A DNA stretch of 64,000 bases from Alistipes timonensis (GTDB lineage Bacteria > Bacteroidota > Bacteroidia > Bacteroidales > Muribaculaceae). How positions within the stretch are numbered: the stretch's first letter is position 1; the number at the start of each line of letters is the position of its first letter. Below the pieces are notes generated by a model that ran no database searches, had not been told where the DNA came from, and saw only the letters and a program-made list of their open reading frames with translations. This document shows positions 16,959 to 31,589 of the stretch, piece by piece. Location: NCBI GenBank assembly GCA_023663385.1, contig JAMPHO010000001.1, forward strand, positions 933,153 to 997,152, read 5' to 3'. The translations under genes and the position numbers were made by a program.

Positions 16959-18012
16959 TTATCGTCCACCTGTATATATTTTATACGCGTTGGGGAACCA
17001 ACGGGAGAAACGCTCACCGACAACACAAGCTACAACGTAGAACAAAATAGGAATTGTCAGATATGAAATAATGAAAGTCATCTCCGAACGTGAAATCAAT
17101 AATGGAATCTTTTTGAAGATATTAAGGAACGGCTCATGGGCGAGATATACGAAGAAAGTGTACTTGGCAAACCAGTCGATACGCACGCTCGATAAATGAT
17201 CCGACAGCGCATCGTACACAAGCCACAAAGCTGGAACCCCCAACAACGGAAGGCACTTACCCATAAGTTCGGCACTCCACCCGACAACGCACACCGCCAA
17301 ACAGAACAAGTAACCAATGCAAACGGTATAAAGTAATACTTTATTTCTGACTGTGCATCCCACAGTGATTCCCGACATAGCTATGTAACCGCCGGACATA
17401 AACCAAAAAGCCGTGGCAACGTAGCCAATCCATATCCCCGCGGCAAATAAGCCCGCGAGAAACAGAATCGGCAAAAACTTACCCACAGAATGATTAAGGC
17501 CAACCAACCATTTTAGGATCAGCCATATTAATGGTGAGAACAGAACCATCACCATCAAATCCCTGACAAACCAAAGCTGGAACGCGATTGGCGGATTTAT
17601 AAAGACAAGCTCCAGGGTGCCCCAAACACCGAGGACATCCATATCGTTAAATATCTTAAAGTTTAGAACATCCGCTACCCCCCCCGAATTTCAAAGCGAC
17701 AGCATTAACCCCGCAATAAAAGAAGAATGTAAAAATATTAGCGATTAAGTATGGCACAAGCAATGTACGTCCGCGTTTTCGTATCTTGCCAATGATCGAC
17801 TTAACGCCATCCGGAACTTTCAGAAAGAACAGGTAGCCTGAGATTATATAAAATAATGGAACTGCCGTTCTGCAAAAGCTACTAACAGTCTTTTCAACGA
17901 GGTTGAGAATCGGCATTGCGGATCCTTCAGTGTAATACATATGTATGTATATCACCATAACTATGGAAAACGCCGACATCACCCGAAACTTTCTGCTAAG
18001 GTATTCAGTCAT
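16959..18012 (-). pseudogene. Acyltransferase-3 (OafA-like) O-acyltransferase, out of frame at a G8 tract; candidate phase-variable gene, OFF
   Basis: Integral membrane acyltransferase of the family that O-acetylates surface polysaccharides. The 5' part (18012-17656, 118 codons) begins MTEYLSRKFRVMSAFSIVMVIYIHMYY and reaches VPLFYIISGYLFF. The 3' part (17642-16959) holds the later helices, FQLWFVRDLMVMVLFSPL and the late YTFFVYLAHEPF. They are in different frames. On the minus strand the junction is a run of eight G after TTC. With seven G the frames join (FGG-VADVLNFKIFND-MDVL...) into about 350 residues, the normal family length; with eight G it stops nine codons past the phenylalanine. Starts inside the upstream polymerase gene by 8 bases. 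Confidence 0.85.
17678..17685 (-). repeat. Homopolymeric tract, eight G on the coding strand, at the acyltransferase frameshift
   Basis: Eight C on the plus strand. It sits exactly at the point where the two halves of the acyltransferase gene change frame. Loss of one base restores the full frame; gain of one gives an immediate TAG. Together with 25646-25654 it is one of the only two G/C runs of eight or more that I found in the window. Confidence 0.85.
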
Positions 18013-19204
18013 TGAGTATCGAGGTCAAAATCCAGAAGAAAGGGAACATAAGGGCACCGGAAAACAGGAGCCAGCCCTCGCAGATACCATTTATCACAAG
18101 AAATGACAGCACCGCTAAAAGGAATGGGCGAGGATGTTTAGCGGAGTGTTTCAACACAGCTCCCCAAAACGCGATGAAGGCAATCGTCCCGATCAGCCCC
18201 GTGTGTGCTAAAAGCGACAGCCACGAGGAGCCAGGTTCGGTCGACGATCCGGCCAGCACACTTTCAGGGTCGTCGAACTCGGAGTTGAACACCGTTTGGG
18301 CAGAAAAACCGATGCCCGTCAGCGGCGCGCTCTCGAACTCGGCCAAGCGACCCGTCCAACGGTCGATGCGTGATGAGAAGGGTGATCCCGCTTCCACTGA
18401 CAAAGCGTTCTTCATCGAGACGGACTCTCGGACTGCCGGGACACAGACTGAAACCAAGCCGACCGCGGCCATCATCGACAACGCGAGGACAACCTTTTGC
18501 CGGGAACCCTTTCGCCAAGCCACGACCATCAAGATGGCCGCGGCGCACACCAATCCGGCAACGGCGATGCGTGAACCAGCGGCAACGGCTGTAATAACCG
18601 AGATGACGCACACGATGGCCCAGGCTACCGCTCTGGCACCACAAGAGCAGCCAGACGTAAGCATTTTATGCAGTGACAATATGGCGGACAGCGCGGCGAC
18701 AGGCGATAATGCCATCCCAAGCTTCATAATACCGCGGAATCCGAAATGATGATACTCGGCGGTCGACGAAGTCGCCACGGCATAGCACAACATCGCGAAC
18801 GATGTCAATGTAATCAACACGCACGCCGCAAAAAGGCCATTCCACGCACCGCGGCGGAACTCGTTTAGTAATGGAGTGACCGCCAATGGAGACAGCGCCG
18901 CCAGGCCAACAACGAAACCCGCAAACCTCATCCAGCAAGTGCCTAATGGCACAGGCCGCATAACAATCAGCGATAAAGCGCAAGCGCCGAGGAATGCCAG
19001 CAGCCAGTAATTAATTCTGAAACGCTCTCCCCGCAAAAATGACGCGGTAACCGCTACCATTGTAGCCAATGCCATCATCAAGGATTGTGCGAATCCACCC
19101 AGGTCAACCGCGTCAAGGACGCGCACCATCGTCAAAAAACCGACGATAGCGCCCATGGCTAACGGCCAATTTCGGCTGAATATGTTTGCAGCGTCGCTAT
19201 TCAC
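18005..19204 (-). CDS. O-antigen ligase/polymerase-like membrane protein (Wzy_C type)
   Basis: 399 residues with about ten or more hydrophobic segments and one large periplasmic loop (residues ~255-330, including SSRIDRWTGRLAEFESAPLTGIGF, SSTEPGSSWLSLLAHTGLIG). The AGSRIAVAGL helix followed by this loop is the pattern of the Wzy_C (O-antigen ligase) family. It could polymerise repeat units or transfer them to an acceptor. The operon also contains another polymerase-like protein at 22.7-24.0 kb, so a ligase role for one of them is possible. It overlaps the downstream acyltransferase by 8 bases. Confidence 0.82.
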   Translation of the reverse strand: MNSDAANIFSRNWPLAMGAIVGFLTMVRVLDAVDLGGFAQSLMMALATMVAVTASFLRGERFRINYWLLAFLGACALSLIVMRPVPLGTCWMRFAGFVVGLAALSPLAVTPLLNEFRRGAWNGLFAACVLITLTSFAMLCYAVATSSTAEYHHFGFRGIMKLGMALSPVAALSAILSLHKMLTSGCSCGARAVAWAIVCVISVITAVAAGSRIAVAGLVCAAAILMVVAWRKGSRQKVVLALSMMAAVGLVSVCVPAVRESVSMKNALSVEAGSPFSSRIDRWTGRLAEFESAPLTGIGFSAQTVFNSEFDDPESVLAGSSTEPGSSWLSLLAHTGLIGTIAFIAFWGAVLKHSAKHPRPFLLAVLSFLVINGICEGWLLFSGALMFPFFWILTSILND

Positions 19205-19209
19205 TATTA

Positions 19210-21312
19210 TCAGTCACTCAAAGCAGTATGGTACGCGTCGAGTTGCGCTCGGTCGCGGGCTTCGAAATCGATGCCCTTCGCTGCGGCGGCGTACCGCGCA
19301 TAGTCCGATGACAGCTCGCCGATAGCCCGCTGGAGGTCGTCAGGCGAATCGTGGCGGAAAGACACTCCAGCGCCCGTATCCAACACCATATCGGGGCCGG
19401 CCCCGACCATTTCACTGACTATGCAAGGAAGGCCGCGATATAATGCTTCTTCTACTACCAGCCCCCACGTTTCGGATAGTGACGGGAGAATAAACACGTC
19501 GTGGCTCTCATAAATACCTGAGAGTTTTCCATTGTCAATGAAGCCTGTAAAGCGGATGTTGTCGGTGGCCATCGCCTTTAATCGTTCTTCAAGCTCCCCT
19601 CCGCCTACAATAGTCAGCGGCAAGCCGTTACGGCTGAAGCATTCAACAAGTACTTCAAGGTTCTTAACCGCCGTCAAACGGCCAACGTAAAGGAATCTAA
19701 GCGGCGACGCGGGCTCGTGATAGCGCACGCCCTCCTTGCGGAAAATGCCCACGGACCCTGTTGTGAACATATCACCTTTAAGGCCGAGCTTGCGCAGCAA
19801 TCGGCCGTGGGGCGCTCCGCTCGGGAAACCGCCGGACATCCGTCCGACGATACGGCGCTTCAGCCATCCGCGCAAACCGCCTGTGCGCACTTCAAAATCC
19901 GATGACTCGCACACCACTAAGTTCCTCTTGCGGGGCGACATAAAGGCGTACAGGTTGTATTCCGGGAAACACCACCCGGAGAACAATACCTTTTTGTAAC
20001 GGATGGAGCGCATAAGCCGCCGCAATGCGAGGAATGTTTTCGGCTTGTCGCGGTACTGGTAGCGTCCTTCAGAAATAAACACCCAGTCGAATCCCCACCG
20101 GGCACGGTCCTCATCCTTAAGCACATTGTTGACCGCCTCAGCGCCGTAACCGATCAGCACCAGGAGAATCTTTCTCCCTTCCGCTGCCAGACGGCGACAC
20201 AGCTCCAGCTTGTAGAAGCTCGGGGTGTTGGTTAGGTAGACAAAGTCGTAAGGTCGTTCTATATCTTCCATAGTTTTCTTCCAAACATCAGTTGAGAAAC
20301 GACGGCTCACCTCTTCTGATTGGTTTGTGTATCGGGCGAGCACCCCATCTGGAAGCGCCGCAATGCGCCTTATCTCCTCCGCCATCCCGTCAATGGTCGA
20401 AGGTATCACGCAATAATTAATCCCCTCTATTTGAGGATAAGCTATAGTGGAGACCACCGCCCTGTTGTGAAGAAGCGCCTCGATTATTTTGGAGGGGAAA
20501 TTGCAGCGGTTCTCAAGGAACTCTGGATCGCGGGTAGAGAGGAGGAAAGTCGATTCGTGCAACAGCCTAAGATATTCCTCTGACGACACCTTCCCATGAA
20601 AATTAACGTTGGGGTATCGCGCTGCCATCTCCGCAAGACGCTCCGGCTCAGTGGTAATCCCGGTTATGTGGAGCGTTGCCGAGGGAACTTTTCCAAAAGC
20701 TTCGATTACTTTGGATACCTGCGAGATATTTTCGCCAAGCACCCCCGATAGTAAGAACAGCGGGGCGGCACTTGACACTACGGGTCGCGCCTCGTCAGCC
20801 GGAGGTACAACACCCGGCAGACAATGAAAATTATGCTTCGCCACGCGCTCATAAGTAGTGAGTCCTATACGTCCTGCGGCGGAGTTATAAGAACGCATTA
20901 CGCGTTTTTCGTCAGGCTGTCCCGGGGTGAAATCAAGCACTATCGGGTATATGGCGACTGATGGTTTGAACCACCTCAGCAGCTTCACAAGGAAATAGTT
21001 GAGATTAGTTACGTTATAGAGCCAAAGCTCACTCCCGCGGGGCACGCGTCTCATCAGAGTTACCTGCTCCACGAGCGGCCCGAGAGCCCTCAGACGCCCC
21101 GGCAGCAGCCGTAAACGCGAAGCCATCGAGGTGAAAAGACCGCACGAGGCCGCTTTAGCCTCACCATAGCCCACCATCGGCGGCAGTATAGAGTATGCGG
21201 CGTCAAACATACCGCCGCGCAGCAGATTGCATGAAAAATGGCTCGCCGCAATGCTGATCCCCTCTGGAATCTCGCGGCTGTCAGGCGCCATATGTCCTAA
21301 AAATATCCGCAT
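19210..21312 (-). CDS. Tandem glycosyltransferase: two GT-B (GT4-like) domains in one protein
   Basis: 700 residues, about twice a normal GT4 enzyme. Domain 1 (residues ~1-350) has FLLSGVLGENISQVSKVIEAF and the donor-site region FLENRCNFPSKIIEALLHNRAVVST. Domain 2 (residues ~355-700) begins PYDFVYLTNTPSFYKLELCRRL and has LRFLYVGRLTAVKNLEVLVECF and the EX7E motif in SLSETWGLVVEEALYRGLPCIVS. No frameshift or internal start is needed to read through. The protein probably adds two sugars in sequence; domain 1 lacks the clean EX7E form and might be a divergent transferase. Starts 2 bases after the flippase stop. Confidence 0.87.
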   Translation of the reverse strand: MRIFLGHMAPDSREIPEGISIAASHFSCNLLRGGMFDAAYSILPPMVGYGEAKAASCGLFTSMASRLRLLPGRLRALGPLVEQVTLMRRVPRGSELWLYNVTNLNYFLVKLLRWFKPSVAIYPIVLDFTPGQPDEKRVMRSYNSAAGRIGLTTYERVAKHNFHCLPGVVPPADEARPVVSSAAPLFLLSGVLGENISQVSKVIEAFGKVPSATLHITGITTEPERLAEMAARYPNVNFHGKVSSEEYLRLLHESTFLLSTRDPEFLENRCNFPSKIIEALLHNRAVVSTIAYPQIEGINYCVIPSTIDGMAEEIRRIAALPDGVLARYTNQSEEVSRRFSTDVWKKTMEDIERPYDFVYLTNTPSFYKLELCRRLAAEGRKILLVLIGYGAEAVNNVLKDEDRARWGFDWVFISEGRYQYRDKPKTFLALRRLMRSIRYKKVLFSGWCFPEYNLYAFMSPRKRNLVVCESSDFEVRTGGLRGWLKRRIVGRMSGGFPSGAPHGRLLRKLGLKGDMFTTGSVGIFRKEGVRYHEPASPLRFLYVGRLTAVKNLEVLVECFSRNGLPLTIVGGGELEERLKAMATDNIRFTGFIDNGKLSGIYESHDVFILPSLSETWGLVVEEALYRGLPCIVSEMVGAGPDMVLDTGAGVSFRHDSPDDLQRAIGELSSDYARYAAAAKGIDFEARDRAQLDAYHTALSD

Positions 21313-21314
21313 AA

Positions 21315-22745
21315 TTATTTGAGAACGAGAGACACGAGGTCGCGCAGGTCGCGAGAGCGAAACGCGAGGGCGAGCCCGAAGTAAACAAGTATTCCCGCTA
21401 TCACCCCGAGAAGCACCCGCACGGCGTTGTCGTCAGTCGGGAGTATCCACAGCAAACCAACGATGGCGCCATACATCGCGGCTGAAAACAACAGACTGGG
21501 CAGAACGGCCTTGAACTGCGTCCTCAGCCCGAGCCCGATACGACGCCCCCCACCAATGATGGCGATAACGAGTCCGACAACAGCCGTCACCACCAATCCG
21601 CAACAAACCGCCGACAACCCGAACGGTATCAAGGCAGCCAGCGACAATAGCCCCACCCCCTTGGCGGCCAATTGCAAGCGGAGATACCGCCGCGAGTCGC
21701 CCATAACCTCCAACACCATCATATTCACCGAAATTAATGGGAAAAGCATCATAGCCAAAGCGAGTATTCGCAGAAGCCGCGCCGCATAAAGCCACTGGGA
21801 GCCAAAGAGGAGCTCTACAAACGGCACAGCGATTGCCGAAAGCCCAACCATAAGCGGGAACACGATGAACGCATAATAACGTATATGGCGGCAGAACGCA
21901 CCAGCAAGTCTCTCAGGCTCATCGCGTAGCGAGCAAAGCGCCGGGAATGTGGCGCGCTTGATAATGCGCGTCACGTTGACCGAGGCAAAGTCGCCCAGCT
22001 GATCGGCCCTTGTATAGCAGCCGAGACTGTAGGCTGAGAAGACTTTGCCAATCGTCATCATATAAATATTACTGTAGAAGGTGTCGAGGATATCGCTCGC
22101 CATAATCCTCGAACCGAAGCCGAACAGACGGCGGAAAGAGTCAACAGCAAAGCGCATTCGCGGCCTCCAGGGGGATAAAATCCACAACGCGGCCCCTGTC
22201 ACCGCATGGTTAGTGAGTTGCAACCCGGCAATAGCCCAAACACCGAAACCCGAGTAAGCCATCCAGACACCGACGACGCCTGAACATAGCGCTCCGGCGA
22301 GAGTTGTTTTGGCCTGTGTCTTGAAATCAATTCGAGAGGTAAGTATAGCCCGATGCACCACAAGCGTAGAATTAATCAGCACACTGAGGCTCAGCACACG
22401 GGCCAAATCCGTCAGGCGTGGTTCCCCGTAGAAGTCAGCGATAAGCGGAGCGGAGAAAAACAGCAAGATATAAAGCAACGCCCCCACTCCGATATTGAAG
22501 AAAAACGCCGTAGAAACATCCTCCTCGGTATGTCGTCCAAGCCGGATAATTGCCTGCGAGAAACCTCCATCGGCGAGCAGCTGCCCGATAGTGATGAAAA
22601 TAGCCAGCATCCCTACCAACCCGTAGTCGGTCGGCGTGAGCAGCCGCGCCATCAGCACCAGGATGGCAAACTGCACACCCTGCACCGATAACCTTTCGAC
22701 GGCGCTCCACACCGCGCCCTTCACCGTCCGCCTCGCGTCAAACAT
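21315..22745 (-). CDS. Polysaccharide flippase, WzxC-like (MOP superfamily)
   Basis: 476 residues with 12-14 hydrophobic helices. The start KGAVWSAVERLSVQGVQFAILVLMARLLTPTDYGLVGM is a near-textbook WzxC/RfbX family N terminus; the later TRADQLGDFASVNVTRIIKRATFPALCSLRDEPERL also matches. It moves undecaprenyl-linked repeat units across the inner membrane. This is the second flippase in the operon (the other is at 28.3-29.9 kb), and it starts inside the end of the polymerase-like gene (25-base overlap). Confidence 0.92.
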   Translation of the reverse strand: MFDARRTVKGAVWSAVERLSVQGVQFAILVLMARLLTPTDYGLVGMLAIFITIGQLLADGGFSQAIIRLGRHTEEDVSTAFFFNIGVGALLYILLFFSAPLIADFYGEPRLTDLARVLSLSVLINSTLVVHRAILTSRIDFKTQAKTTLAGALCSGVVGVWMAYSGFGVWAIAGLQLTNHAVTGAALWILSPWRPRMRFAVDSFRRLFGFGSRIMASDILDTFYSNIYMMTIGKVFSAYSLGCYTRADQLGDFASVNVTRIIKRATFPALCSLRDEPERLAGAFCRHIRYYAFIVFPLMVGLSAIAVPFVELLFGSQWLYAARLLRILALAMMLFPLISVNMMVLEVMGDSRRYLRLQLAAKGVGLLSLAALIPFGLSAVCCGLVVTAVVGLVIAIIGGGRRIGLGLRTQFKAVLPSLLFSAAMYGAIVGLLWILPTDDNAVRVLLGVIAGILVYFGLALAFRSRDLRDLVSLVLK

Positions 22746-24019
22746 CTTCTAATCGGAGTAGCTTCAATATCAAAATAATCACGACACATAAACATGCCAA
22801 GAACAACAAACAAAACTGTTTGAGTGGTTGGATGTTGGCCATTAGGTGACACAAAGCAAGTTGTCAGGTATGATATGAGGAACAGTATAACGAGAGTTTG
22901 GAACAAATCCCATCTACCAAGCCTGCGTACAATATAATAAACCGGGTAACACAGCAGTATAAGACCTATAAGACCGCACTCGCTTAATCTGCCAAAAAAA
23001 GTATTCTCATAATGCGAACCAACTATCTCTGTAGGCATAGCCTTTTGACCTTGCGAAAGAGCGACCGCCTTTCCGATAAGTGCCACAGTGATATCGTCTG
23101 CTATAGTTTCATCAAAACCACGCTTCCATGCTCCGCTCCTGGTGTCTTCTTTCAACGAAGATTCAGAATATCGATTTGAATAAGACTTTTCCTCCATCAA
23201 AACTGATGACACTAAAGCGGGAGCATAGCACGCGACGAGAATGCCCCCAACAATAATGTGCGCCTTAATGCCCTTACCTTTGATAAGGTAAAACAGATTG
23301 CCCCCAATAAACATCATCCCAAGTACCAATACGATCTGGCGGCTCCCTGTAAACCACGATCCCACTATGAAAGACACGCAGATCGCGAGGAAATAAAATT
23401 TTGACAGGAACGTTTTGGCCATTGTCATACGCATAAAGCCACAAAACATACAGAAAGCATAGTAGACACCAAAAGTAGTTGGCGCTTCCGAGAGAAAGCA
23501 GTAACGGCCATCATCCAACAGCCCATCCAGCCCCTCTGTATTGTTGATCAGGAATCTTTCCGTGAAATATCCACCCGAAGCATAATCGGCAATTAGTCCA
23601 ATACTTAGGAATAAACCTAAATATGTGAATATTCCGTAGAAAGCTTTAGGAGAAATATATCGGGTCTTTGCAACCAGGAAAGGAAGACATATAAACGGAA
23701 GCCCGGCGAAATACATCCAATAAGCGTAAACTATTCGCAAATAATTGAAATCATATTGCCATACCGTCACCAAAGAAAGCAATAATACTCCGAAAGCGAG
23801 CCCCCCCTCGACCTTGAAAATATGTCGCAATTGCCTGACATTAATCCGGGGTACTAATCGGTAACATACGGCCAATCCGCATATCCATATGAGCTGACGC
23901 CACATATTAAGCGGAGCTCCGCGAAGAAGCCAGCCAAAAAAACTGCCATTAGTCAACATAAAAATGGCGACCAGGTAGAATCCTAAATAGGCCTTTATAT
24001 GGCGCGTAACACCAGCCAT
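22721..24019 (-). CDS. Polysaccharide polymerase-like membrane protein (putative Wzy)
   Basis: 432 residues with about 11 hydrophobic segments. No strong sequence family, but the topology, the GSWFTGSRQIVLVLGMM helix and the periplasmic GSHYENTFFGRLSECGLIGL segment resemble Wzy polymerases and O-antigen ligases. It is AT-rich and contains a run of seven G on the coding strand (plus-strand C run 23811-23817) near residues 70-72, where the frame is intact. It overlaps both neighbours by 25 bases, so it is translated as part of the operon. Function inferred from location and topology. Confidence 0.78.
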   Translation of the reverse strand: MAGVTRHIKAYLGFYLVAIFMLTNGSFFGWLLRGAPLNMWRQLIWICGLAVCYRLVPRINVRQLRHIFKVEGGLAFGVLLLSLVTVWQYDFNYLRIVYAYWMYFAGLPFICLPFLVAKTRYISPKAFYGIFTYLGLFLSIGLIADYASGGYFTERFLINNTEGLDGLLDDGRYCFLSEAPTTFGVYYAFCMFCGFMRMTMAKTFLSKFYFLAICVSFIVGSWFTGSRQIVLVLGMMFIGGNLFYLIKGKGIKAHIIVGGILVACYAPALVSSVLMEEKSYSNRYSESSLKEDTRSGAWKRGFDETIADDITVALIGKAVALSQGQKAMPTEIVGSHYENTFFGRLSECGLIGLILLCYPVYYIVRRLGRWDLFQTLVILFLISYLTTCFVSPNGQHPTTQTVLFVVLGMFMCRDYFDIEATPIRRCLTRGGR

Positions 24020-24966
24020 AACAATTTTGGGTCGATCATTAACAGTAATAGACGTATCTGAGACTTTAGGCGCCAGCGGGTCGAGAAGAACATTTTCAGT
24101 AAACGGGCTTTAATCTCTTTGCGGCGAAAGAATGAAATAGTGGCATCGAAATGTTCCTTATTCGCGAAGTCGCCCACCATCTGAAACGCATAGACATTTG
24201 ACAACAAATGTACAATATCCCTGTTCGTTAAGCCATAACGAGCAATAATGTATTCATTTCCCTGAATAGAACCCTCAAAATTACGTATACTGCGAGTCGC
24301 CGTTATTGATCCTTGCCGGTTCTGACGGTAGCAGTATATGCCTTCGTTGATATACTTGACCCGGCCAGCATTCATAAGCACGTCAACATAAAACGGATTA
24401 TCCTCATGGTATATCCCTTCTACAAACCGCAGTTTGTTATCACGCAGTACTCCTGCCGGATACAGTTTTTTGGGGGCCGGTATCTCTTGAAATTTGGAAC
24501 GCCCAAGCGTCAAGGACATAAACTGTCGGGCAGAGTATTCTCCGGGTGGGACACCGCAACTGTTCAACACCTGCTCTGTTTCCGAGTACCAATATATCAG
24601 AGGGAATTGCACCACAACATCGGGTTCGGCGAGGGGTTTCAACGTTGCCAGAGCGTCAGGCATAAGCCAGTCATCACCATCGAGAAACAGTATATACTCA
24701 CCCTTGGCTGCCGCCATTCCATTATTGCGCGCATTTGAAAGGCCGCCATTCCTCTGGTTTATGATAACAACGTTATCTACATCCTCATAGCGAGTAATGA
24801 AAGATAGAGTATCATCGGTAGACCCATCATTGACAACAATAATCTCGACTTCAGTTTGGTCAACTTGAGCCTGATTCAAACAGGATTCTATAGCATTGAC
24901 CACCATACTGCCGATGTTGTAGGCAGGAATAATTATTGAAAAAAATGGTTGCTTCTTATGGCTCAT
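23995..24966 (-). CDS. Glycosyltransferase family 2
   Basis: 323 residues. Standard GT-A domain: FFSIIIPAYNIGSMVVNAIESCLNQ, IIVVNDGSTDDT, the acceptor block RNGGLSNARNNGMAAAKGEYILFLDGDDW with its DGDD metal site. The C-terminal part (after residue ~210) is basic, with HEDNPFYVDVLMNAGRV typical of GT2 enzymes of surface glycan loci. Member of the minus-strand polysaccharide operon; donor unknown. It overlaps the polymerase-like gene by 25 bases and follows the broken acyltransferase after 13 bases. Confidence 0.92.
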   Translation of the reverse strand: MSHKKQPFFSIIIPAYNIGSMVVNAIESCLNQAQVDQTEVEIIVVNDGSTDDTLSFITRYEDVDNVVIINQRNGGLSNARNNGMAAAKGEYILFLDGDDWLMPDALATLKPLAEPDVVVQFPLIYWYSETEQVLNSCGVPPGEYSARQFMSLTLGRSKFQEIPAPKKLYPAGVLRDNKLRFVEGIYHEDNPFYVDVLMNAGRVKYINEGIYCYRQNRQGSITATRSIRNFEGSIQGNEYIIARYGLTNRDIVHLLSNVYAFQMVGDFANKEHFDATISFFRRKEIKARLLKMFFSTRWRLKSQIRLLLLMIDPKLLWLVLRAI

Positions 24967-24979
24967 CTATTTTTAGAAT

Positions 24980-26045
24980 TTAAAGCGGGTTCTTTCTCAT
25001 TAAGGCATCATCTATCCAACCAATAAATCCTGTGTGTAAGATTTTATTCCAAAGCACACGCCTCAAACAATCAACCGCAAAACAAACTAAGTATGTGGAG
25101 AAAGCAAGAGTAATAATTCCTAATAATATTGCCACTGGATTACCAACACTAAATATTAGATTTGCCACACCTTGATAAAATGGCCGCACTAACGGGTTTT
25201 CATGAATCAGGTATACAGCGAATGCTGATGATGCAAGTCTGTTTACAATGGAACTCTTGAATGAGTATCGGGCAAACACTATGAGAAAGGCGGCTGCGAA
25301 AGCGATATTAACAGGCGACACATAAGAAATATCCCAACGTCGTATCCAACCGCAAATTCCCTCGTGCGGAATCACATAGCAGAGTGTCCATACAGCAATT
25401 CCACATACACTTATGGCCGACAAAAGTGCGAGTAATGATACGTGTGCCTTAAGCTTTCCTCTATCGAACTCTGCTCGAAGCAATCTCCCAATCATATAGA
25501 GAATCAAAAAAGAAATCACAGAATAACCATGATTGAATTCCGGCCATACAGGTACAATCCACCCAAATAAAATTTGGAATGCCATTAACAAACAAATTAA
25601 AATATTATTACCATAACTCCTCTCAAACTTTAAATACAAATTAATGGGGGGGGGTAAAAAGTAACAACAATATATAGCATCTTGAGAACCAATCCTTGTT
25701 GCCCGGAATCATATACCATAATGCCTCGCTCCATGAGGAGTAATTACTCGTTGCGAACGCCACTCCTATCAATACTCGATAAAATACTATCTGAAATAGA
25801 ATATTAAGAACACTTTTAAAACTAAGTGTAACCCCAAACCATCCTGATATTAAAATAAAAATATTCACACCAAGCACAGCAAATGCGCCCAACTCACAAC
25901 GGAGCAGTGACAGCACTGGATGTGACTGGCATACCTCATGGGTTGGAAGTCCTCCAAACGGTGCTATTACAGCATGAGTAATCAACACCATAGTCATAGC
26001 GACAATGCGCAACAATTCGAAATTTGACTGTCGGCTTAAATTCAT
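24980..26045 (-). pseudogene. Acyltransferase-3 O-acyltransferase, out of frame at a C9 tract; second candidate phase-variable gene, OFF
   Basis: The 5' part (26045-25641, 134 codons) has the classic start QSNFELLRIVAMTMVLITHAV and NIFILISGWFGV. The 3' part (25639-24980) has later helices including SAFAVYLIHENPLVRPF. They are in different frames and meet at nine C on the coding strand. With nine C the reading is ...LLLLFTPPH-stop. With eight C it becomes ...FTPPINLYLKFERS and continues to about 354 residues, the normal length. The family typically has a similar Ser/Thr-Pro-Phe-Ile-Asn turn here, which supports the joined reading. Overlaps the pyruvyltransferase-like gene start by 4 bases. Confidence 0.87.
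25646..25654 (-). repeat. Homopolymeric tract, nine C on the coding strand, at the second acyltransferase frameshift
   Basis: Nine G on the plus strand, placed exactly where the two acyltransferase halves change frame. Removing one base restores the reading frame. It is the longest G/C run I found in the window. Confidence 0.87.
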
Positions 26046-27142
26046 ACGTTCTCGCGCAAATACTCGTATGACTTAGTTCTTAACACCGACAAACGCTCAT
26101 CCATTGACTTGAAATTGATTGGCACATCCATAACATTTGAAAGAAAAGCTGGCGCTATGAGCTGGCGCTGTTCCTGACCAATTGTCTCAAGTAGTGACGT
26201 TAGCTTATTTTTATTTGATTCTCGGATTAGTGTTACAAACGGGCGATGGGTTATTGCAGAAAAAATTGTTCCGTGGAACGTGTCTGTGACAACGCCTGAC
26301 GCATACTTAAACCATCTTAACACTTCGAATGGGGATTTTGGCGCCACTAACACATCGCACCAAGGATATAGCCCCATTATAGCCACAAGCTTTTTCTTAT
26401 GAGTCTTGGCATATCGACGGATAGCGGCTGCTTCCTCCTTATCCGTAATACGATTTCCATAGGAATAAACCACGATGTAATCTTTATCCAAAGGAGCTGA
26501 TGTATAAGCATCAATTTCGGCGCTATAGCCATAAGCGAGAACAGGGTCTATATGCATCTGAGGCTTGCGATCTGTCAGTTTTTCTACTATCAAGGCACTA
26601 TTTTCGTCCCTGACGGAGATTGAGGCAATACCGCGCAGATTGCGAGCCACTATTTGGCTTACCCCGTATGTGTTCAAATCGTCAAGAGTAGTATGCCCGA
26701 ATGACGCCGCATAAGTGATTACCTTATGGGCATTTTTCACTTTACCGAACAATTGCTCCGTAAAACCCCACCAAGAAGGCTGACAACAATTGAAAACTTC
26801 ATCACTTCCAATAACAGCAACATCAAATTCATCAGAAGCCTTAGCTGGTGGCAAAAACGCTATATTATCAGTAAATGAATTGTAATAATCAGCCGCGAGC
26901 TCTCTACTCTTAAGAATGAATGGTAATCCTTCTCTATATAGTCGGCTTAGTTTTCTCGCGATACGTTGCGGCTTAGTCAGAGTCACAACAGGCGGTTTAA
27001 CCAACGCGTCCCCCCGTTCGATTCCGATGAATGAGCATTTGCTGACACCAACAGCCTCGACCATTCGCCTAAGCGCATATGCTTGCAGAAAAGAACCATA
27101 GTTAGGCACTTCCTGCATTGAAAGGATTCCAACAGACTTCAT
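26042..27142 (-). CDS. Polysaccharide pyruvyltransferase family protein
   Basis: 366 residues of the CsaB/WcaK-like family that adds ketal pyruvate to sugars or acts as a relative with another transfer role. Visible are MKSVGILSMQEVPNYGSFLQAYALRR, DEFDVAVIGSDEVFN, ITYAASFGHT, ISVRDENSALIVEKL, and the late YASGVVTDTFHGTIFSAITHRPFV block, which is the strongest family mark. In Bacteroidetes glycan loci it is often paired with the FrhB-like gene, as here (4-base overlap). Predicted cytoplasmic. Confidence 0.92.
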   Translation of the reverse strand: MKSVGILSMQEVPNYGSFLQAYALRRMVEAVGVSKCSFIGIERGDALVKPPVVTLTKPQRIARKLSRLYREGLPFILKSRELAADYYNSFTDNIAFLPPAKASDEFDVAVIGSDEVFNCCQPSWWGFTEQLFGKVKNAHKVITYAASFGHTTLDDLNTYGVSQIVARNLRGIASISVRDENSALIVEKLTDRKPQMHIDPVLAYGYSAEIDAYTSAPLDKDYIVVYSYGNRITDKEEAAAIRRYAKTHKKKLVAIMGLYPWCDVLVAPKSPFEVLRWFKYASGVVTDTFHGTIFSAITHRPFVTLIRESNKNKLTSLLETIGQEQRQLIAPAFLSNVMDVPINFKSMDERLSVLRTKSYEYLRENV

Positions 27143-28344
27143 TTGCTAATCGCTCTCTTTATTTTTGAATATAACCTCTGCGGCAACTTAGTATTATAGT
27201 AGAATCTTAATATCAAGTTCTTATAGATCCAACCCAGAGAATGTTTGGACCCAAATGCACGAAACACCATATTGTATATCCACGGCTTGGATACTGTATG
27301 CTTTAACTGGGCTTCCAATAGGTATTCGACACGCTCTGATTGTATTTCGCAACTATGGCTCAATTCTCTGACAATTCTATCACCTGCGCCAGTAAGGGAA
27401 ATTAAAGCGCTCACTCCTTTCTCATCATTCATGAATTTCTTTCCCCAATAATCGCCAAGCCTGATGTCCGCAGATGAGTTACAGCCTTTAAACTTACAAT
27501 CGCTATAGCAACAAGTATTGAGGCAATAATTCCCAAGAAAGAACTCATAAAATAAGTCGCCAGAAGTCCATTTGGAATATACTTTGTGGCGCGGTTCCGG
27601 CAACGACACGTCATACTTATCCGAATCGTCGTCGTGACTCGGCTTCACATCAGCAGATATCGCCCAAGAGTCGTGCCAACCATTCGCCTTAGTCCTCCAT
27701 GATAGAAACGAAAGGTCTCCTGTCTCAGATTTAAGTTCGGAAATATACTTATCCCAAAGCCTTAACGAAGGGACACCATGGCAAAAGAAATCAACTAGTA
27801 TAAAATTGTCCTCTTTCCGAACTCGCTTCAAATATCTGCGCAAAGACCCTATTTGGCAAGGGGTGCCGACAACGACCCACTTTTCATCAGTTTTTAACTT
27901 GCCAAAAGCATTTTCCGTATAACTCGGCAGGTACTTGCTGCCTACCGAATATCTAATATCATCCACGGTTTGGGCGATATAGTGTCGTGCTCGGTCATCG
28001 GTTACGTCATACTTGACAGCGCAGACCTTGTAACCTTTTTCGAGCAGCCGCATAGAAATCTCATATCCAATGCCTCCTGACGAGCACCATTGCCTCACAT
28101 TCTGATTCTTTGACCATCCATAATATCCCAACGGAGCTCGTTCTCCAGCCTGCAGGGTATTAATATAGGCGCAGTCCTTAACACAAAGTCCACAATTGAT
28201 ACACAGGCTTTCATCCACAATAGGTGAGTAAAAGCCTCTGCTGTTTTCTTTTAACGAGATGCAGTGCTTAGGACAAACCCGAGTACAGACACCACAGCCA
28301 TAACATTTATTGGAAACCTTGGAAATATTGAAGCGGTCAGGCAT
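27139..28344 (-). CDS. FrhB-like protein (coenzyme F420 hydrogenase/dehydrogenase beta subunit family) with ferredoxin domain
   Basis: 401 residues. N-terminal 2x[4Fe-4S] ferredoxin domain (CYGCGVCTRVCP and CINCGLCVKDC, residues ~14-58), then the FrhB N and C domains (GGIGYEISMRLLEKGYKVCAV, VVVGTPCQIGSLRRYLKRV, FFCHGVPSLRLWDKYISEL, and a C-terminal cysteine set around NTCCYSDCKFKGC). Such proteins are common in Bacteroidetes and archaeal polysaccharide clusters beside pyruvyltransferase-like genes, where they are thought to handle a redox step on a sugar or acyl group; the true substrate is unknown. Overlaps both neighbours. Confidence 0.92.
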   Translation of the reverse strand: MPDRFNISKVSNKCYGCGVCTRVCPKHCISLKENSRGFYSPIVDESLCINCGLCVKDCAYINTLQAGERAPLGYYGWSKNQNVRQWCSSGGIGYEISMRLLEKGYKVCAVKYDVTDDRARHYIAQTVDDIRYSVGSKYLPSYTENAFGKLKTDEKWVVVGTPCQIGSLRRYLKRVRKEDNFILVDFFCHGVPSLRLWDKYISELKSETGDLSFLSWRTKANGWHDSWAISADVKPSHDDDSDKYDVSLPEPRHKVYSKWTSGDLFYEFFLGNYCLNTCCYSDCKFKGCNSSADIRLGDYWGKKFMNDEKGVSALISLTGAGDRIVRELSHSCEIQSERVEYLLEAQLKHTVSKPWIYNMVFRAFGSKHSLGWIYKNLILRFYYNTKLPQRLYSKIKRAISK

Positions 28345-29872
28345 TGGAAAACTTCCTTCTTAATTTTTTAAGAGATGATAAAGCAAAAGCTCTCTCGTTC
28401 TTTTCCAAAACTATATAGAATGATGTCACAGCGCTCAACAGAAGCGCTACCGAGACTGATGTAATCATTCCAGGTATCCCAGTGACAACGTCTGCGACCG
28501 CCCAGACTATCGGCGAGCATATAGCGCAAGCCGCTAAAGCCGGCAGCATCACTTTTTTCATATATGCCTCTGCCGGAAATCCTATCAGTTTTCGTAAATA
28601 TGCTATACGCACGAAATGGGTGATTAAGTTGATCAATACCCGGCCAACAAAAACATAAACAGGCGAAACGTCGATATACAGAAGTATGATGGCAAGAGGA
28701 ATATTCAGCATTATCAACCCCGACATCAATAACATATAATTGCGAATGTTACCGACTGCCTGGGCCGAAACCCACAATGGGCCGGAAAGAGCGTCAATCA
28801 TGCAGAACACAAGCATCAATTGCGTAAATCTCACTGAAAAATCAGGAACATCCGTAAGCCATAAATGCAATATATCGGAGCATCCCGCTATCACCGGAAG
28901 CCCGAGCACGAACATAAGGCAGAATGACAACCGGGATGTAGAAAAAACAAAGTTGAAAAATTCTGTCTTCTCACCAGCGGCATATGACTTTGTTATCTGC
29001 GGGTTAAATGCTGTTTGAAAATTGGTTACAAAAGAATTTACAGCGGAATACACCTGGGTTGAAACCCCCATCGCCGCATTGACAACCACACCGCAAAACA
29101 CATTGAACACCATATTCAATCCTTGGTTCGCGGCAATGTTGCTTATTCCGCCAACCATATTCCATCCGTTGAATGCCATAAGGCTTTTAAACATCGACTT
29201 ATCCCAATACCGCTTGAAATAAATAGTTGTCACGGTTTTCTTCAAAAAACAAATCGATGATACCCAGCAAATAATTACAATAAAAAATACTAATAAACCA
29301 TATGACACAAGTCGAAACTGCGGTGCGAGATACCCCAAACAATATACTCCGGCTAACTTAAGCACCGCTTCCGCAATACTTAGATACGAAAAGAAACTGA
29401 ATTTCTCATAGGAAACTATCGCGGAGTTATACGGCGCTCGAATCAAATTCACGACAAACGTGGCCACAGACACTTGGTATAACCAAAATACCTGGGTCAT
29501 ACTTGTCGGAGGGAATTTCAATACATTATATACAATCCATAGGCCAAGTGTTTCCGCTATGACGAGAAAAGCCACTCCAAAAAACGCATGGACGTTTACG
29601 CTCATTGAGAACAGATTGGTTATATCCTTATGTAAACCCTTACCTATATAATAAGATAAATAACGCTGTGTGGATTGGCTAAGTGCGGCATTTATGAAAG
29701 CGAACAGCACCACCACACCGCCGATAACGTTATAAATGCCGTAATTATCAACGCCAAGTTCTTTGAGTAAAATACGGAAAGCAAAGAGATTGACCGCCAT
29801 GAGCACAAACATGCGCACATACAGGAACATCGTATTCTTAGCAATCAGCTTTTTGTCGATATGACTGCTCAT
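28337..29872 (-). CDS. Polysaccharide flippase (Wzx-like, MOP superfamily)
   Basis: 511 residues from ATG 29872 (a TTG at 29884 is rejected), with 12-14 hydrophobic helices. The N-terminal AKNTMFLYVRMFVLMAVNLFAFRILLKELGVDNYGIYNVIGGVV matches Bacteroidetes Wzx-type exporters that follow the antiterminator in capsule operons. Compared with the second flippase (21.3-22.7 kb) it is clearly a different subfamily and is more AT-rich. First biosynthetic gene after the antiterminator; it overlaps the FrhB-like gene by 8 bases. Confidence 0.9.
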   Translation of the reverse strand: MSSHIDKKLIAKNTMFLYVRMFVLMAVNLFAFRILLKELGVDNYGIYNVIGGVVVLFAFINAALSQSTQRYLSYYIGKGLHKDITNLFSMSVNVHAFFGVAFLVIAETLGLWIVYNVLKFPPTSMTQVFWLYQVSVATFVVNLIRAPYNSAIVSYEKFSFFSYLSIAEAVLKLAGVYCLGYLAPQFRLVSYGLLVFFIVIICWVSSICFLKKTVTTIYFKRYWDKSMFKSLMAFNGWNMVGGISNIAANQGLNMVFNVFCGVVVNAAMGVSTQVYSAVNSFVTNFQTAFNPQITKSYAAGEKTEFFNFVFSTSRLSFCLMFVLGLPVIAGCSDILHLWLTDVPDFSVRFTQLMLVFCMIDALSGPLWVSAQAVGNIRNYMLLMSGLIMLNIPLAIILLYIDVSPVYVFVGRVLINLITHFVRIAYLRKLIGFPAEAYMKKVMLPALAACAICSPIVWAVADVVTGIPGMITSVSVALLLSAVTSFYIVLEKNERAFALSSLKKLRRKFSNA

Positions 29873-29923
29873 TCTACTTGGCAAATATTATTTGGCAGCA
29901 CCTCTGGACCTCAATATTCGGCG

Positions 29924-31333
29924 CTATTGCTGTGTGATTGGGCGGAGGAAGAGGTCGGGGATGGTGGCGGTGACGCGGAGGCCGAAGTCGGAGGTGAGGG
30001 AGACGGTGAGGTGGCGGCGGGTGCCGGAGGAGCTCACGCGGCCGCGGTAGCCGGCAAAGGGACCGTCGGTCACTTCCACGTCGGTGCCGGCAGGGAGTTC
30101 GGCGCACTCGGTGCCGTCTATGAGTTCAAGGTCGTCATCGGCAGCTCCGTCGAGCAGGATGCGGAAATTGCGCATCTCATCGGCCGGAATGCGGGCGAAA
30201 GGGGCGTCGGCTTGCCGCGACTGCCTGTATACCGTGGCGGCCGACGATATGGCTACCGCCGCTACGGGGATGAGGGCCGGCGTCGCCTCAAGGAACATCA
30301 CGTTTCTGATGCGCGCTACCACGGTGCTCTTCAACCGCTTGCCGCGACGCACCATCAGTTGCTCTACCGGGGCGTATGGTTTTACCCCGGAGAGCCTGGC
30401 GTCGGAGGCAAGTAGTCCGCGCACCGCGGCGGAATCGCTCCCCGGGCGCAGCCGCAGGGCGTACCAGGCAGGCTCGTCGCCAAGCACTGCGGAACTAACC
30501 CGCCGCAAAACCGCGTCGCAGTCGATCTCGGAAGTGTCATTTCCGGCAAGTTGGCCCTCGCCAAACCCTTCGGGCACTTCGCCGCACACGGCGGCTATTT
30601 CCCGGGCCGGTACGCCGCATTCACGCGCGGCTCGGATCCACAGCTCCACTGCCAGTTCCGCGGAGAACGCCCTGTCGGCACTGAGTCCGCAACTGCGCAG
30701 CAAGATGGGCGCGGCTGCCTCCAGTCCTTCGGAGTCAACGCGCCCCGCGGAGAGCACTGCGGCGATCAGATTGTCGCGCGATGCCGCAAGACCCGCGTCG
30801 TTGATCGTCATTCGGGCGAGCCGCCCCAGCGACGCGGCGACTTCGCCTCCGTCGGCAGCGCATTTTCTGGCCTCACGGTTTCCCGCCGGATGGTCCGAGC
30901 CAACTATGTCAAAGCTCCCGGCGGGAGCTTCCTCCACCCTCCCCTCTCTGGCGAGTCGCCGATAGAGCGAGCGGAAGTTCTGCATGCGCTTGGCTATGTA
31001 TGATGCAGTATGACCTCTATCAGCCAAATAGATGCGGAACTCGGTTACGAGTTCCGCATCTATGCGGCATATGCCGCGCGCCGCGAAAGCCTTGAACGCC
31101 GCGACAAATTTTTCAGCGTCGCGCCTTGTGTTTTCGTTGGCGAATCCCCGCGATAGCTCCTCAAAAAGCCCCGCGAGAGCCATCCCGAAAGTATTCGGGC
31201 CGAAATATACCTTTTGGCGCGTTCCGCATATACATTCATTCCCCGCTCCGGCAGTAATCTCTTCCGGGGCGGGGTTAGCTGGCGAAATGTCTTCAGCGGC
31301 GGTTACCGACTGAAGCTCAACACTTTCATCCAT
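29924..31333 (-). CDS. UpxY/NusG-like antiterminator fused to a degenerate tyrosine-recombinase module
   Basis: 469 residues, high GC. Residues ~287-396 form a NusG N-terminal (NGN) domain (AWYALRLRPGSDSAAVRGLL; RRGKRLKSTVVARIRNVMFL; PADEMRNFRILL), and ~411-440 a KOW motif (LPAGTDVEVTDGPFAGYRGRV), as in UpxY proteins, which let RNA polymerase read through long capsule operons. UpxY proteins are normally about 170 residues. The extra N terminus has a SAM-like core-binding domain (~55-132; ELVTEFRIYLADRGHTASYIAKRMQNFRS style) and a shortened catalytic-like domain (~172-265) that aligns by eye without gaps to the end of Bacteroides integrases, yet HxxR, the following His and the Tyr are replaced (E226, V229, E252, Q261). 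First gene of the operon. Confidence 0.85.
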   Translation of the reverse strand: MDESVELQSVTAAEDISPANPAPEEITAGAGNECICGTRQKVYFGPNTFGMALAGLFEELSRGFANENTRRDAEKFVAAFKAFAARGICRIDAELVTEFRIYLADRGHTASYIAKRMQNFRSLYRRLAREGRVEEAPAGSFDIVGSDHPAGNREARKCAADGGEVAASLGRLARMTINDAGLAASRDNLIAAVLSAGRVDSEGLEAAAPILLRSCGLSADRAFSAELAVELWIRAARECGVPAREIAAVCGEVPEGFGEGQLAGNDTSEIDCDAVLRRVSSAVLGDEPAWYALRLRPGSDSAAVRGLLASDARLSGVKPYAPVEQLMVRRGKRLKSTVVARIRNVMFLEATPALIPVAAVAISSAATVYRQSRQADAPFARIPADEMRNFRILLDGAADDDLELIDGTECAELPAGTDVEVTDGPFAGYRGRVSSSGTRRHLTVSLTSDFGLRVTATIPDLFLRPITQQ

Positions 31334-31350: not shown

Positions 31351-31379
31351 CGGCAATACTCTCGAATCAAGAGTGGCCG
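31351..31379 (-). promoter_or_regulatory. Leader hairpin between promoter and antiterminator gene
   Basis: Paired segments CGGC/GCCG and ACTCT/AGAGT with a 7-base loop lie in the 5' leader, within the first bases transcribed. The place fits a pause or recruitment hairpin for a NusG-type specialised factor, or simply a stabilising leader; this is inference. Confidence 0.5.
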
Positions 31380-31388
31380 ATTCATCCG

Positions 31389-31420
31389 CAAAGTTACTAA
31401 AAAACCTTAAAACCCGCAAC
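31389..31420 (-). promoter_or_regulatory. Promoter of the polysaccharide operon
   Basis: On the minus strand: -33 TTG (31417-31419), 20-base spacer, -7 TAACTTTG (31389-31396), a perfect Bacteroidetes match. Transcription should begin near 31382, leaving a leader of about 50 bases. I looked for flanking inverted repeats of an invertible promoter and found only a 7-bp pair, so orientation seems fixed. Confidence 0.75.
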
Positions 31421-31500
31421 CCCGACACCCATATATACGCGGGTATACGCGGTCCACCCCCCATTCAATCACAAAACCATTTCAAACTATCAGTAACAAA

Positions 31501-31534
31501 TCCGGGGCGACCCCCTGATGGAGATTGCCCCGGA
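31501..31534 (-). terminator. Terminator downstream of the DXS-like gene
   Basis: Perfect 8-bp stem TCCGGGGC/GCCCCGGA with an 18-base loop; on the minus strand it is followed by TTTGTTA. It separates the DXS-like gene from the polysaccharide operon promoter. Confidence 0.7.
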
Positions 31535-31589
31535 TAAGATGCTGATAACAAACTCACGAAGAGAAGCGCTGGTTTACATACAGCCCTCG

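Follow-up and report, generated by a model that had tools for sequence, protein, structure and literature searches.

A gene in the window, the whole 64,000-nucleotide stretch of DNA analysed here, encodes a tyrosine-recombinase module joined to an UpxY-like NGN-KOW antiterminator. Comparison with related genomes indicates that this fusion is real, old and conserved and that its recombinase half is catalytically dead, and the data suggest that the antiterminator has come under the guidance or control of this former enzyme. We file the protein as a variant of the UpxY-type antiterminators and not as a recombinase.

Domain organisation and operon context

The fused gene encodes 469 residues from an ATG at 31333 (Table 1), and the structure predicted for the protein has a mean pLDDT of 80, with disorder predicted for residues 1-43. 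Residues 67-137 match the Pfam profile Phage_int_SAM_5 with an E value of 3.9e-5, which passes the gathering cut-off, and in VIA-align comparisons of the predicted structure residues 41-151 resemble the core-binding domains of 3nrw (Z 10.9), lambda Int (1z19, Z 10.0) and Tn1549 Int (Z about 9.8), with an rmsd of 2.6-3 on lambda Int and Tn1549 Int. Both domains of the tyrosine-recombinase fold, core-binding and catalytic, are found, with the beta-hairpin missing. Residues 290-460 match the NCBIfam profile antiterm_UpxY (NF033644) with an E value of 1.1e-17 and 64.5 bits, so that the protein is homologous yet falls under the 100-bit cut-off of that family, and the C-terminal part superposes on both NusG and RfaH with Z of about 10-11. 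All 32 members of a set of fused proteins (A4) match the UpxY profile at an E value of 0.01 or better. Family profiles were needed since single-sequence searches yielded little: with the window protein as single query, a search of genome contigs gave no match and phmmer against the PDB returned NusG as sole match. The initial annotation, made from the sequence alone, had read the N-terminal half as derived from an integrase and the C-terminal part as NGN plus KOW of the UpxY kind; profile alignment and structure comparison bear out both, and a lack of structural resemblance to recombinases, which it named as refuting, is excluded.

Table 1. Features of the fused gene and its surroundings, in window positions.
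Feature	Position	Strand	Basis or remark
Fused gene: dead tyrosine-recombinase module plus UpxY-like NGN-KOW antiterminator	29924..31333	-	ORF, profile matches, predicted structure
Core-binding (SAM-like) domain, residues 48-137	30923..31192	-	Pfam, VIA-align, helix D charge
Degenerate catalytic domain, residues 150-285	30479..30886	-	Alignments; family-versus-invertase hhalign
NGN (RNA-polymerase-binding) domain, residues 287-397	30143..30475	-	NF033644 match; RfaH/NusG structures, Z 10-11
KOW domain, residues 410-466, predicted beta-barrel	29936..30106	-	Profile, predicted structure, structure comparison
-7 box TAACTTTG, presumed Bacteroidales-type; -33 TTG at 31417-31419, spacer 20	31389..31396	-	Sequence
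7-3-7 near-palindrome ACTCTTG-ATT-CGAGAGT	31358..31374	-	14 bp past -7 box
Polysaccharide operon downstream: MatE-like flippase, FrhB-like, PS pyruvyltransferase, acyltransferases, glycosyltransferases, Polysacc_synt, Wzy	18005..29884	-	
Inverted repeat, 28-nt arms, 4-nt loop (probable terminator)	31488..31547	.	Between upstream transketolase-like gene and promoter

As initially proposed, the fused gene heads a polysaccharide operon, the position of an upxY gene, and the next gene starts 40 bp after it. Among related loci, 59 of 81 fused genes are followed by a gene on the same strand, with families of polysaccharide synthesis and export prominent. One clade of about nine loci carries the fused gene as a monocistronic unit (L084, L087, L090, L096, L097, L101, L104, L108 and L114), adjoining at L097 a rhamnogalacturonan-degradation cluster (rhamnogalacturonan lyase, GH88, GH106), and no palindromic site was seen at the promoters of this clade. 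By analogy with RfaH, its fused proteins may act in trans.

Loss of catalysis and relation to promoter invertases

Based on a MAFFT alignment with intact invertases, the window protein retains none of the catalytic set R-K-H/Y-R-H-H-Y: Arg I is replaced by Ala, the Lys hairpin is deleted and the remaining positions are Glu226, Val229, Glu230, Glu252 and Gln261, whereas Trp232 is retained. The substitutions at 226, 229, 252 and 261 had been assigned by eye and came out identical in this independent alignment. The reading of lost catalysis thus stood and now extends to Arg I and the Lys hairpin, with two refinements: the window protein is about 60 residues shorter in the catalytic region than most relatives, and the 'His' position of HxxR is a Tyr in the nearest intact relatives.

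We scored 80 full-length fused members against ten intact invertases at the seven catalytic positions. Arg I is lost in 75 and kept in 5, Arg II is lost in 65 and kept in 15, and both the Lys hairpin and the nucleophilic Tyr in its aligned column are gone from 79; 53 members retain no catalytic position and none retains more than two. The Trp that follows the HxxRH box is conserved in 79 of the 80. The core-binding domain is present throughout, while the catalytic part is nearly all gone from L115 and L136 and partly reduced in L174, L177, L178 and L180; of the full-length members, that of the window ranks among the most degraded. An N-terminal half that still recombines DNA could appeal to the shared fold and to the few members with Arg I or Arg II, but the Tyr and hairpin counts and the ceiling of two in seven refute it on sequence, and we regard it as scarcely credible. 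Elsewhere in the genome of the window, at L238 (contig C67, 961-2166), a separate invertase-like protein of 401 residues follows a WecG-like gene and looks half-dead, with TRGM kept, RLTG as its Lys motif, RATW in place of RHSW and a frame that stops before the Tyr; it is a possible stage toward catalytic loss.

The source of the module is indicated by hhalign: the family arm and Bacteroidales promoter invertases align with 99.5% probability (E 2.8e-22) across 251 columns, as far as the lost tyrosine, and the two are homologous. In the sample of the order, stand-alone integrases of 372-435 residues contain positions matching the arm. The nearest intact relatives are invertases directly upstream of the same class of loci, and at three loci an intact invertase lies directly upstream. 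The genome of the window also encodes an intact invertase that shares 44% identity with the query; its gene lies just upstream of a stand-alone upxY that has a repeat pair.

Distribution and origin of the fusion

Profile searches covered 397 genomes of the same family, Muribaculaceae. We aligned 82 fused proteins, that of the window included, out of a longer list of matches; they represent at least 65 genomes spread over 10 genera of Muribaculaceae. The carriers include cultured isolates such as Duncaniella muris DSM 103720 as well as one-contig and four-contig genomes (G125, G208), and nearly all 82 proteins are read from a single open frame in different assemblies. The chance that assembly or gene calling had joined an integrase to upxY, which the initial annotation named as a possible flaw, is negligible on these data, and nothing was found in its favour; the alignment of homologues also confirmed that the loss of catalytic residues recurs throughout. 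No fusion outside Muribaculaceae turned up in samples of 393 genomes from the order and 295 from the class, a limit that rests on the genome samples because the names at L164 (Alistipes) and L170 (Clostridiales) are MAG labels. A phage or plasmid origin is unsupported, with no fused relative in the viral contigs, phages and plasmids searched.

A tree of the NGN-KOW part was built from 40 stand-alone and 44 fused rows. Forty of the fused rows, the window's among them, form one group (SH-aLRT 95) and the other four a second (98), which puts the number of fusion events at one or two. The NGN domains of fused proteins form their own clade apart from stand-alone UpxY, and the window member sits on a long branch near the base. 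As read from these sequences, the tree shows one main origin of the fusion within Muribaculaceae. Longer fused variants occur at L182 (4843-6714) and L184 (280-2430), 624 and 717 residues long; their additional residues lie inside the recombinase or NGN part or between the two. At L226 and L232-L236 we also observed UpxY-like genes with open frames of about 340-390 residues in which the additional part is something other than the recombinase arm; some of these genes lie behind the same palindromic sites. We found no description of an antiterminator-recombinase fusion in the open-access literature (subscription papers and preprints apart), and the NusG-paralogue papers PMC7593976 and PMC7819879 do not mention one.

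Promoters and palindromic sites

An inverted-repeat pair lies upstream of 30 of 81 fused genes, each repeat being a palindrome ATCTCTT-NNN-AAGAGAT. Promoters between the repeats point toward the gene at some loci and away from it at others, which indicates an invertible promoter. The same repeat pairs were found in 20 of 40 control rows of stand-alone upxY (two rows being the same region), so they are a feature of the locus type and not of the fusion, and the idea that invertible promoters are special to fused genes was rejected. The link to a recombination-controlled locus that had been suggested therefore holds for many fused genes but is not specific to them, and the region upstream of the window gene contains no inverted-repeat pair and does not qualify as an inverton. 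The exact TCTCTTNNNAAGAGA site occurs once in the genome of the window, at another upxY. Other Bacteroidales are known to have related invertons next to an integrase, one example being the 17-bp GCTACTYRGNRAGTAGC of P. distasonis (PMC12118408).

A scan with sigma-70 models of the window region was uninformative for Bacteroidales promoters. We take TAACTTTG to be a Bacteroidales-type -7 box, going by the consensus of Bacteroides promoters. The near-palindrome beyond it folds as a 7-bp RNA hairpin. Of 14 fused cases in which a -7 box can be recognised and faces the site, 13 have 12-14 bp between the end of the box and the palindrome, and the distance is mostly 12-15 bp at stand-alone upxY loci. 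In shuffled sequence such a palindrome arises anywhere in the 45 bp with a chance of 0.05, and the exact spacing of 14 bp in the window makes coincidence less likely. To judge from its sequence and position, the window palindrome apparently represents the inner site, now diverged, of a promoter that has ceased to invert.

Other promoters have a single ATCTCTTNNNAAGAGAT site, and it is the inner one that they retain, 8 to 0, with no partner within the 0.6-3 kb examined (from the gene start: L064 -151, L085 -78, L133 -181, L102 -198, L204 -63, L212 -141, L222 -131, L234 -161). The retained site is often a perfect palindrome, at fused and stand-alone upxY loci alike. Either these promoters were recently locked or the inner site has a second use; it may, for instance, serve as a pause or loading element. 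Since it also occurs at stand-alone upxY loci, a second use would not need the fused arm.

Selection and charge of the arm

Pairwise dN/dS of the arm was 0.07-0.14 in pairs with unsaturated synonymous change, which indicates purifying selection on the recombinase half. Mean identities were 0.216 for the core-binding part, 0.222 for the catalytic part and 0.352 for NGN; the arm thus diverges faster than NGN, and its core-binding part fastest, as expected of a part that sets specificity. A central fused member is predicted with pLDDT above 90 through most of residues 20-290.

The charge of the arm has changed. Median net charges are 0 and 0 in the fused family versus +4.5 and +8.5 in intact invertases, and at 14 conserved invertase Lys/Arg positions 20% are retained in the fused family versus 72% of hydrophobic positions; by alignment, most of the conserved DNA-contact basic residues are lost. 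The catalytic part of the window protein is acidic (-8), whereas helix D of the core-binding domain (110-129 in the window) is basic at changed positions, +2 in the family and +6 in the window. This pattern argues against DNA recognition in the ancestral manner by the entire clamp and is compatible with an arm formed by the core-binding domain. The initial annotation had allowed for DNA or RNA targeting by the arm: for DNA, helix D speaks in favour but the neutral net charge and the lost Lys/Arg positions do not, and for RNA we found no support.

Proposed mechanism and alternatives

NGN-KOW factors such as UpxY, RfaH and NusG bind RNA polymerase, which then reads past terminators in a long operon. 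In the leader of its own operon, UpxY keeps transcription from terminating early (PMC7819879), and some dead tyrosine recombinases, such as MrpR/YopR, regulate genes by binding DNA (PMC10516654); a further dead recombinase, SroF (PDB 9rd5), was matched in our structure comparison. We propose, with a probability of about 0.4, an operon-specific antiterminator of the UpxY kind in which a domesticated dead invertase module is a DNA-reading arm that loads the factor near its own promoter. The core-binding domain would still read DNA, with altered specificity, near the promoter of its operon; the candidate target is the 7-3-7 palindrome just past the transcription start, which would descend from the site that the ancestor cut. 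Bound there, the arm would hand the NGN domain to polymerase leaving that promoter. Such loading from a DNA site would follow the logic of lambda Q and AlpA, with a factor of the NusG type in their place. The homology with invertases of the same locus class, the uniform loss of catalysis under purifying selection, a core-binding domain that evolves fastest and is kept while the catalytic part shrinks, its basic helix D, the regular distance from -7 box to palindrome, the preference for the inner site and the precedents all speak for a DNA-reading arm. Against it are the overall loss of positive charge, the acidic catalytic part in the window, the shuffle chance of the window palindrome taken alone, palindromes and repeat pairs at least as common at stand-alone upxY loci, which need no fused arm, and the lack of a site at the promoters of the monocistronic clade.

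The strongest rival, which the charge data favour more than the initial annotation allows, is that the dead half contacts protein, either pairing with an active invertase and so preventing or skewing inversion as long as the operon is on, or covering NGN until a partner releases it and so doing the job of RfaH autoinhibition or of UpxZ. We hold this to be a real possibility: the hydrophobic core is kept while DNA-contact basics are lost and the charge is neutral, the window's genome encodes an intact paralogous invertase, such an invertase lies directly upstream at three loci, and many promoters are invertible; the still basic helix D and a window promoter with no repeat pair tell the other way. 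It is improbable that the module is a structural relic, fused by chance and tolerated while NGN-KOW does all the work; the differing extents to which the catalytic part was lost, far advanced in the window member, would fit, but purifying selection, the confident fold of the central member, the near-invariant Trp, the spread over at least 10 genera and the well-supported main clade would not. As an extension of the DNA-reading arm we consider, as a rather long shot, that one palindrome has two readers, the active invertase, which cuts it, and the dead arm, which reads it as DNA; phase switching and loading would then share a site and an ancestry, and after inversion was lost, as in the window, the site would be kept for loading alone.

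Comparison with known systems

As far as the open-access literature shows, this would be the first transcription elongation factor to incorporate a dead recombinase. A single protein here connects antitermination with the phase-variable control of capsules in abundant gut bacteria. Since the part added by the fusion for specificity or control can be deleted, exchanged and assayed, the question of how a given UpxY-type factor picks out its own operon among several similar ones becomes directly testable.

UpxY of the B. fragilis capsule operons has the same NGN-KOW part and likewise heads a polysaccharide operon, in many cases one with an invertible promoter, and its antitermination of its own operon is established (reviewed in PMC7819879); the fused protein differs in about 285 extra N-terminal residues from a tyrosine recombinase and in scoring under the NCBIfam cut-off. 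The tyrosine-type promoter invertases of Bacteroidales (MATIKVKF... type, upstream of CPS loci) contain the same core-binding and catalytic domains, whereas the fused protein is without their N-terminal region of about 95 residues, their catalysis and their Lys hairpin, and is joined to NGN-KOW. MrpR/YopR of SPbeta and SroF of phi3T put the same recombinase fold to use in gene regulation with catalytic residues lost (PMC10516654 for MrpR), but they are stand-alone phage repressors with demonstrated DNA binding, whereas the module described here forms part of an elongation factor encoded in a chromosomal operon. RfaH is likewise a NusG paralogue that keeps polymerase going in polysaccharide operons; it recognises ops with its NGN domain and its KOW switches fold, whereas the fused protein has an extra arm and a KOW predicted as a beta-barrel. 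With lambda Q/AlpA the likeness is in the proposed logic only, loading onto polymerase from a DNA site at the promoter, and the folds are unrelated.
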